Positions 50,357-54,235 of a DNA stretch of 64,000 nt are shown here, piece by piece (position 1 is the stretch's first letter; each line of letters begins with the position of its first letter). The DNA comes from Rhodospirillaceae bacterium (lineage in GTDB: Bacteria > Pseudomonadota > Alphaproteobacteria > SHVP01). The DNA lies in NCBI GenBank assembly GCA_002722055.1, contig PBKD01000002.1:1-64000 (forward strand), in the 5' to 3' direction. A model generated the notes under the pieces. It searched no databases. It worked only from the letters and a program-made list of their open reading frames with translations, and was not told where the DNA came from. The translations under genes were made by a program, and so were the position numbers.

Positions 50357-50375
50357 ATATACACTATATTTCCCC
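50357..50375 (+). promoter_or_regulatory. NrdR-box-like element, left arm
   Basis: ATATACACTATATTTCCCC. The core ACACTATAT matches the left half of the NrdR consensus (ACACwATATATwGTGT). Its reverse complement recurs at 50452-50470 with 16 of 19 matches. Confidence 0.5.
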
Positions 50376-50435
50376 AAATTTCGCCGAATTAAGCCATGTC
50401 AAGCATAAAAATTACAATTTTTTAAAATATCTAGA

Positions 50436-50464
50436 TTGACCGATGCATTTTGGGACAATATCGT
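50436..50464 (+). promoter_or_regulatory. Probable sigma70 promoter of nrdJ
   Basis: TTGACC at 50436-50441 (5/6 to -35), a 17-bp spacer, and TATCGT at 50459-50464 (4/6 to -10). The start would lie near 50471, leaving a leader of about 105 nt. The -10 is inside the second NrdR-like arm, consistent with repression. Confidence 0.45.
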
Positions 50465-50470
50465 GTATAT
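50452..50470 (-). promoter_or_regulatory. NrdR-box-like element, right arm
   Basis: On the minus strand, ATATACACGATATTGTCCC. It matches the left arm in 16 of 19 positions, in inverted orientation. Centre-to-centre distance is 95 bp, close to nine helical turns. It covers the predicted -10. Confidence 0.5.
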
Positions 50471-50474
50471 CTCA

Positions 50475-50535
50475 ATTGCTCAAGTAACAACATATAGATA
50501 TTTTTGATAACTCTGAGTAATAACTTATTTGCTCA
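50475..50535 (+). promoter_or_regulatory. Three TTRCTCA elements able to form alternative hairpins
   Basis: TTGCTCA occurs at 50476-50482 and 50529-50535. TGAGTAA at 50514-50520 can pair with either: 8 bp with the first (31-nt loop) or 7 bp with the second (8-nt loop), each counting one G-T. The arrangement fits either a leader switch or a set of protein-binding sites. No terminator U-run follows. Confidence 0.45.
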
Positions 50536-50575: not shown

Positions 50576-53500
50576 ATGCAAATTAGCCGCGTTTTTACCA
50601 CAAAAGGAAAATCACCCTACGATCTTATTAAATTTCGTTCTACGAGTAGCGAAATAAGGAACCCTGATGGTTCAGTGGTTTTTGAAATGCATGATATTGA
50701 AGTTCCATTAAATTGGTCACAGGTTGCAAGTGATATAATTGCTCAAAAATATTTCAGAAAAGCTGGAATACCATCTCGAATCAAGAAAATAGAGGAAAAT
50801 ACTGTTCCATCGTGGCTTTGGAGGTCAGTCCCAGATACCAAAGCCCTAGAATCAATACCAGAAAAGGATAGAAAAGTCGGAGAAAAAAGTGCAAAACAAG
50901 TATTTGATAGACTTGCTGGTACTTGGACTTATTGGGGTTGGAAAGCAGGATATTTTGACCAAGAGGAAGATGCTAGATCTTTCTATGATGAAATGAGATA
51001 TATGCTTTGTAATCAGGTTGCAGCTCCTAATTCCCCCCAATGGTTTAATACTGGTCTTCATTGGGCCTATGGTATAGATGGGCCAGCACAAGGGCACTTT
51101 TATGTAGATTTTGAAAAAGGAACTTTGAAAAAATCTGAAAGTGCATATGAACATCCTCAACCACATGCATGTTTTATACAAAGCATAAGTGATGACCTAG
51201 TTAACCCAGGTGGAATTATGGATTTATGGGTAAGAGAGGCCAGGTTATTCAAATATGGTTCTGGAACAGGAAGTAACTTTTCAAGTTTACGTGGTTCCGG
51301 AGAGTCACTATCTGGAGGAGGAAAGTCATCAGGACTAATGAGTTTTTTAAAAATTGGTGATAGATCGGCAGGTGCAATAAAATCTGGTGGCACTACTAGA
51401 AGAGCAGCAAAAATGGTTGTTGTTGATGCAGACCATCCAGATATTGAGACTTTCATCAATTGGAAAACGGTAGAGGAGCAAAAAGTTGCAGCATTAGTTG
51501 CTGGATCCAAAGTAACAAATAAGCATTTAAATTTAATTATGAAATCTTGCAACGCAGTTGAAGGGGAAAATCGCTTTACTCCTAAGGATAACCCAAAACT
51601 CAAAAGTGCAATTATTGAAGCAAGGAAATCAATGATTCCTGAAAATTATATTCAAAGAGTTATTGGTTTTGCAAAACAAGGTTACACAAAAATTGATTTC
51701 CCAGAATATGATACAGACTGGGATAGTGAGGGTTACCAAACTGTATCGGGTCAAAATGCAAATAACACTGTAAGAGTAACTGATCAATTTTTAGAAAACG
51801 TAAATGATAATAAAGATTGGCACTTAATAAGAAGGACTGATAATTCTGTCGAAAAAACAATTAAAGCTTCTGACTTATGGGATCAAATTGCAGAAGCGGC
51901 ATGGCAAAGTGCTGATCCAGGTATTCAATTTCATACCACTATTAACGATTGGCATACATGCCCTGAGGGTGGAGATATAAAAGCTTCTAACCCTTGTTCT
52001 GAATACATGTTTCTAGATGACACAGCTTGCAACTTAGCTTCACTTAATCTTACTAGGTTTCTTAATGATAAATGTGAATTTAATATTAATTCTTTTGAAC
52101 ACGCTGTTCGACTCTGGACAATTGCTCTTGAAATTTCAGTTCTAATGGCTCAGTTTCCCTCTAAAGAGATCGCGAACAGATCATACGACTACAGAACTCT
52201 TGGGCTAGGTTATGCAAATATAGGGGGTCTATTGATGACAAGTGGAATACCGTATGATAGCTCAGAGGGAAGAGCAGTTTGTGGAGCAATAACAGCTATC
52301 ATGACAGGTGTATCTTATTCTACATCAGCTGAAATGGCTAGTGAACTTGGTCCCTTTCCAAAATACTCAGAAAACTCAGAACATATGCTTAGAGTAATTA
52401 GTAATCATAGGCTTGCTGCACATGGAAAATCTGAGGGTTATGCTAAATTAAATACAAATCCTGTACCGCTAGATTTAAAAAACCTACCTAGTGAAAAACT
52501 ATCTGAGGCTGCAGCTAGAGCTTGGGATAAAGCAGAAGAATTAGGAAAAGAATTTGGCTTTAGGAATGCTCAAACAACCGTTATTGCTCCTACAGGAACT
52601 ATTGGGCTTGTAATGGATTGTGATACAACTGGAATAGAACCTGACTTTGCGATAGTAAAGTTTAAAAAACTTGCTGGAGGAGGATATTTTAGAATAATTA
52701 ATAAAGCTGTTCCAAAGGCATTAAAAGCTTTAAACTATAATGCAGAACAAATTAAAGATATTGAAAGTTTTGTTCTTGGAGAGCGTACTCTCAAAAATTC
52801 TCCTGCTATAAACCATGAAAATCTCAAAACTAAAGGTTTTACTGAGGAGATAATTAATAAAATTGAGGAAAACCTAAAAGATACGTTTGATATCAAATTT
52901 GTATTTAATAAATGGACAATAGGTTCAGATTTTTGTGAAAATGTTTTAAATATTGATAAATCTGATCTCGAGAACCCAAGCTTTGACATTTTATCAACTA
53001 TTGGTTTTACTGAGGAAGAAATAAATAAAGCTAATTCCTTTTGCTGTGGCACCATGTCCCTGGAAGAAGCCCCTCACATTAAAGAAGAACATTTACCAAT
53101 CTTCGACTGTGCGACACCGTGTGGTAGAAATGGAAAAAGATTTTTATCTTGGAAGAGTCATATTTTAATGATGGCAGCTGCTCAGCCATTTATTTCAGGT
53201 GCAATCTCTAAAACTATTAATATGCCTAATAGTGCTTCAGTAGATGACTGCAAACAAGCATATATGCTCTCATGGAAATTAGCTCTAAAAGCAAATGCAC
53301 TTTATAGAGATGGATCAAAATTATCTCAACCATTAGCAGCTCTAAATGTAGAAGAAAATGATCATCAAGATGAAACCCCCTTATCTAATTCAAATCAGAT
53401 AAGAAAAATGGCAGAGAAGCTTGCTGAAGACTTAGTTGCAAAGAAACTAACTTCTGCAAGTAGAGGCGAAAGAACTAAACTACCTCAAAGAAGAAAAGGT

Positions 53501-54235
53501 TATACTCAAAAAGCAACGGTGGGGGGACATAAGGTATATTTAAGGACTGGAGAATTTGAGGATGGTTCACTAGGTGAAGTATTTATTGATATGCATAAAG
53601 AAGGTTCAGCATTTAGAAGCTTAATGGATGGATTTGCAATAGCTATTTCTTTAGGTCTTCAATATGGAGTTCCATTAGAAGAATTTGTTGACGCATTTAC
53701 TTTTACACGTTTTGAACCTTCAGGTATGGTAGAAGGAAATGATGCAATTAAAATGGCAACTTCAGTTCTTGATTACTTATTCAGAGAATTAGCTGTATCA
53801 TACCTGGGAAGAAACGACTTATCACACGTAGAACCAGATGATCTACGTCATGATGCTCTAGGAGAAGAAAGTCAACAACAAACTGAAACTGATTTAACCC
53901 AAACTGAAAACTCATCATTAGCGACAATGATGGGAGTAGCTTCAAATGGCTATATGAGAAAAAATTTATATGTGGTTAATGGAGGTATTATTTCAGAAAA
54001 AATCCCTCAAGAGGAAATAAAAAAAGGGAGTATACATAGTTCAGAACCAGTTGATTCTAGTATTCAAGGTGAAAATATTGAACAAAAAACTGATGACAAA
54101 GTAGAAAGAGCAATTCAAGCAAGAATGAAAGGATACGAAGGTGAAGCCTGCGGAGACTGTGGTAACTTTACTCTAGTCAGAAATGGAACATGCCTAAAAT
54201 GTGATACATGCGGTTCGACCAGTGGATGCTCCTAA
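50576..54235 (+). CDS. nrdJ: Adenosylcobalamin-dependent (class II) ribonucleotide reductase
   Basis: 1219 residues, the long NrdJ form of alphaproteobacteria. Visible are [16 protein letters not shown] at the N-terminus, the active Cys199 in [33 protein letters not shown] with the radical-site cysteine region, [18 protein letters not shown], and a C-terminal zinc-ribbon ([23 protein letters not shown]) that carries the reducing cysteines. It makes dNTPs without oxygen, using B12. AAGGGA precedes the ATG. Regulation probably involves NrdR and leader elements. Confidence 0.97.

Follow-up and report, generated by a model that had tools for sequence, protein, structure and literature searches.

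Two tandem NrdR boxes predicted on the nrdJ promoter of a Rhodospirillaceae bacterium

The window, by which we mean the whole 64,000-nucleotide stretch of DNA that was analysed, carries nrdJ, a gene for a class II ribonucleotide reductase (RNR) whose match to NF005736 bears out the identity originally proposed for the gene downstream of the promoter region (Table 1). It is the only gene in the genome that carries the RNR large-subunit domain PF02867, and the only class I or class II reductase that we found there. The upstream sequence points to a sigma-70-type promoter, TTGACC and TATCGT separated by 17 nt, with a predicted transcription start at about 50471; the −10 hexamer is the one named in the original prediction. 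Relatives from the same family have TTGAC followed by C, T or A as their −35 element, at a spacing of 17–18 nt, and those of genus g4 have TATCTT at the position of the TATCGT of the window.

Table 1. Features of the nrdJ promoter region, with positions in the window
Feature	Coordinates	Strand	Description
Upstream arm	50357..50375	+	ATATACACTATATTTCCCC; not an NrdR box; chance partner of the second arm; best register 2.8 bits
Third box (tentative)	50422..50437		TTAAAATATCTAGATT; decayed; 31 bp upstream of box A; without the conserved C; weight-matrix score −0.6
−35 element	50436..50441	+	TTGACC; invariant in same-genus genomes G001 and G002
NrdR box A	50453..50468		GGACAATATCGTGTAT; predicted; overlaps the −10 element; within the second arm
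−10 element	50459..50464	+	TATCGT; 17-nt spacer from the −35 element; invariant in G001 and G002
NrdR box B	50485..50500		TAACAACATATAGATA; predicted; roughly +14 to +29 relative to the predicted start
nrdJ	50576..54235	+	Adenosylcobalamin-dependent (class II) ribonucleotide reductase, 1219 aa; NF005736 equivalog, 2127.5 bits

We took an operator of the repressor NrdR to consist of two 16-bp palindromic boxes resembling ACACwATATnTwGTGT. Published work places NrdR boxes about three helical turns apart, with the conserved G–C pairs nine positions apart (PMC9110341), and gives an optimal spacer of 15–17 bp as measured for four NrdR proteins (PMC12051234); in Streptomyces coelicolor, inverting the conserved C and G of a box costs 50-fold or more in binding (PMC9110341). 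As a model of the box for this group, nrdJ upstream regions were gathered from relatives, the window's own genus being excluded from training, and a symmetric weight matrix (PWM) seeded with the published NrdR consensus was iterated to convergence. The matrix settled on CCACAATATATTGTGG, the NrdR palindrome. The dominant arrangement is a start-to-start box spacing of 30–33 bp, present at 48 of 105 nrdJ loci, where local shuffles gave 0.05 on average. Single-site counts run too high, since training took in nearly the same loci; the spacing peak is free of this circularity because spacing was not used in training.

When the window is aligned with G001 and G002, the two same-genus genomes, box A has the highest mean PWM score (7.5/7.5/6.2 bits across the three genomes) and box B the second highest (5.5/4.1/8.7 bits). 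The two boxes start 32 bp apart and leave a 16-bp spacer, an offset that is identical in both relatives, and contact positions 4 and 13 (C50456 and G50465 in box A, C50488 and G50497 in box B) are invariant in all three genomes. Fifteen of the 16 columns of box A are invariant; box B, with 12 of 16, is conserved no better than the average upstream window, and either box taken singly falls short of the 95% level of the chance maximum in such AT-rich DNA (9.1–9.6 bits). None of 3,000 column shuffles, in which the conservation of each column was kept, matched the score of A and B for any pair spaced 30–33 bp, and a degenerate two-box pattern with 32-bp spacing has its best match in the 2.16-Mb genome at A and B, the only match with a single mismatch; the same pattern run backwards gave one match per strand at two or fewer mismatches. 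A further site, at 50371, had the highest single-genome score (9.5 bits) and was dropped, as it scores −2.2 in both relatives.

Box A holds a fixed position on the promoter. Its first base precedes the −10 hexamer by exactly 6 nt in the window, in G001 and G002, and at loci L005, L006, L007, L008 and, weakly, L132. Among the nine family loci where a promoter can be recognised, eight have this register and only L004 departs from it. Furthermore, an nrdR gene is present in the genome (C2:233690-234115; 162 bits, with a cut-off of 124.65), which removes the absence of the repressor as an objection to NrdR control. The DNA-contacting residues of the published NrdR complex include D15, R17 and R26–R29 (PMC9110341). 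These occur in the protein encoded here, as do all four zinc cysteines; residue 12 is Q instead of R.

Because both boxes are degenerate, it is spacing, conservation and register jointly that argue for A and B as a pair. The genome thus combines two palindromic boxes, a spacer within the 15–17-bp range, the C and G contacts, an RNR promoter and nrdR, and we consider it very likely that nrdJ has an ordinary promoter under NrdR repression, of the sigma-70 type and carrying boxes A and B in tandem. The part of the original prediction that put nrdJ under NrdR through a box on the −10 element is supported.

The number of boxes is less certain. Partner boxes lie 31–33 bp downstream of the box on the −10 element in the window's own genus, at L008 and L132 and, weakly, at L006 and L007; boxes 30–31 bp upstream of it occur at L005, L006, L007 and L132. 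In the window, the segment at 50422–50437 is possibly a decayed third box. An in-phase NrdR array of three boxes (starting at 50422, 50453 and 50485, with spacings of 31 and 32 bp), a variation on the two-box operator common to the family relatives and open to more than one NrdR tetramer register, is conceivable, and we regard it as unlikely. We give less credence still to the proposal that this segment near the −35 element, instead of box B, is the partner of the −10 box, as in genus g4: the upstream boxes of the relatives speak for it, as does the right half-site (CTAGAT) kept in the window, but the segment has lost the conserved C and reaches only −0.6 bits, and box B ranks second in the three-genome mean score.

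The pairing originally proposed was a different one. It joined the upstream arm to an inverted copy at 50452–50470 (GGGACAATATCGTGTATAT), and the two 19-nt arms are indeed complementary at 16 of 19 positions. They were, however, picked post hoc, and an inverted pair of this quality at such a distance arose in 26 of 400 composition-matched Markov sequences of 360 nt, and the window contains six comparable clusters of inverted pairs. An NrdR core had been read in both arms, which holds for the second, where box A has its best register 2 nt from the one proposed, and fails for the first. The core of the upstream arm, ACACTATATT in the window, reads ACAACATATT in G001 and ACAAATAATT in G002; C50364, the conserved C, is replaced by A in G001 and G002, and C occupies the position of the conserved G (G13) in all three genomes. 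By the original prediction's own standard, conservation of the arms in related genomes, the upstream arm fails. Invariant columns number 14 of 19 in the upstream arm, the regional average, against 18 of 19 in the second arm, which ranks the latter among the best-conserved 3% of windows. The 16 base pairs that the arms can form in the window are reduced to 15 in G001 and 11 in G002, and compensating changes are absent. We regard the complementarity of the arms as chance, and the comparison with the relatives suggests that the upstream arm plays no part in the operator.

A looped form of NrdR control, in which half-sites in the two arms, with centres 95 bp or about nine turns apart, would be joined by NrdR oligomers, is accordingly very improbable. 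Beyond the complementarity itself, it could draw on other alphaproteobacterial nrdJ promoters, in which extra full NrdR-type boxes lie at a distance of 73–79 or 93–96 bp from a second box at frequencies above those in shuffles (for example upstream of nrdJ at L054, L056, L057, L059, L060, L067 and L088 and at L019, L101 and L124), but those distal boxes are full palindromes, not half-sites. The upstream arm reaches at most 2.8 bits, and a canonical partner 32 bp downstream of box A makes a loop unnecessary.

Nor is there much to recommend an RNA stem formed by the arms around a 76-nt domain in a transcript begun further upstream, a reading to which we assign hardly any probability: a fold that pairs the arms is obtained for the segment at −19.8 kcal/mol, but this weak signal (z = −2.0, equalled by 10 of 200 shuffles) is a product of the chance complementarity, the pairing decays in the relatives, the predicted start lies 3′ of the second arm, and the region upstream of nrdJ gives no Rfam match above the family cut-off. 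Neither an nrdJ motif nor a cobalamin riboswitch was found by Rfam across the whole window or in a search of the sequence upstream of nrdJ at permissive settings, the output being a tRNA elsewhere in the window and a sub-threshold chance match to a microRNA, and searching the literature for a described RNA motif of nrdJ returned nothing usable.

Several further sites came to light. The only perfect ACACNATATNTNGTGT palindrome of the genome lies upstream of a gene for a CcrM-like DNA methyltransferase (L032:1501-1516; G000:C7:84786-84801), and this NrdR-type box is also kept in G001 and G002. Among other alphaproteobacterial ccrM upstream regions, 8 of 25 (L171, L172, L174, L175, L177, L179, L188 and L192) have a site of at least 12 bits, against 0.25 expected and a maximum of 2 in 300 shuffles. 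These sites point to possible NrdR control of ccrM, a subject that none of the three papers found to name both treats, judging by title and abstract; if confirmed, the boxes could tie nucleotide supply to a cell-cycle methyltransferase. A zero-mismatch pair of NrdR-type boxes with 31-bp spacing lies upstream of a gene for a LivG-like ABC transporter (L154:1501-1542; G000:C10:41151-41192), with a permease-like gene on its opposite side, and most of the pair is retained in G001 and G002. Separately, the nrdJ upstream regions of L006 and L007, both of genus g4, contain DnaA-box-like TTATCCACA sequences; none was seen by eye in the nrdJ upstream region of the window.

For the tandem operator at boxes A and B, work in other species provides the model of binding, nucleotide dependence and repression. 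By analogy, when dATP is plentiful, an NrdR tetramer loaded with dATP and ATP would bind A and B side by side, the box centres being 32 bp, or three helical turns, apart. Bound NrdR would kink the DNA at each box and obstruct RNA polymerase around the −10 element and the start site (PMC9110341), and the outcome would be reduced synthesis of the cell's only class I or class II reductase. What had been put forward as an exotic looped operator thus reads as a standard NrdR operator with exact coordinates. More generally, an AT-rich genome readily yields convincing look-alike half-sites, and it is conservation combined with spacing that tells a real partner from a decoy.

Among known systems, the proximal and distal box pairs of Listeria monocytogenes nrdAB (PMC12051234) are the nearest precedent for the distal boxes of other alphaproteobacterial nrdJ promoters, and the extra boxes at 73–79 or 93–96 bp may represent a distal box or pair of that kind; the window, unlike nrdAB, has no supported distal box. 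The nrdAB, nrdJ and nrdDG promoters of Pseudomonas aeruginosa likewise carry two boxes each, with box 1 on the −10 element (PMC4409342), but this gammaproteobacterium has all three RNR classes, whereas nrdJ is the only class I or class II reductase found here. The S. coelicolor nrdRJ promoter (PMC9110341) also serves a class II gene through a pair of palindromic boxes at a distance of about three turns, and in each box the conserved C and G likewise lie nine positions from one another. It differs in that nrdR lies far from nrdJ in the present genome, in its spacing (31 bp, from the box positions given, against 32 bp here) and in the degeneracy of the boxes here. This type of NrdR operator is thus already known, and the pair in the window, whose box B the original prediction had missed, is a further case.
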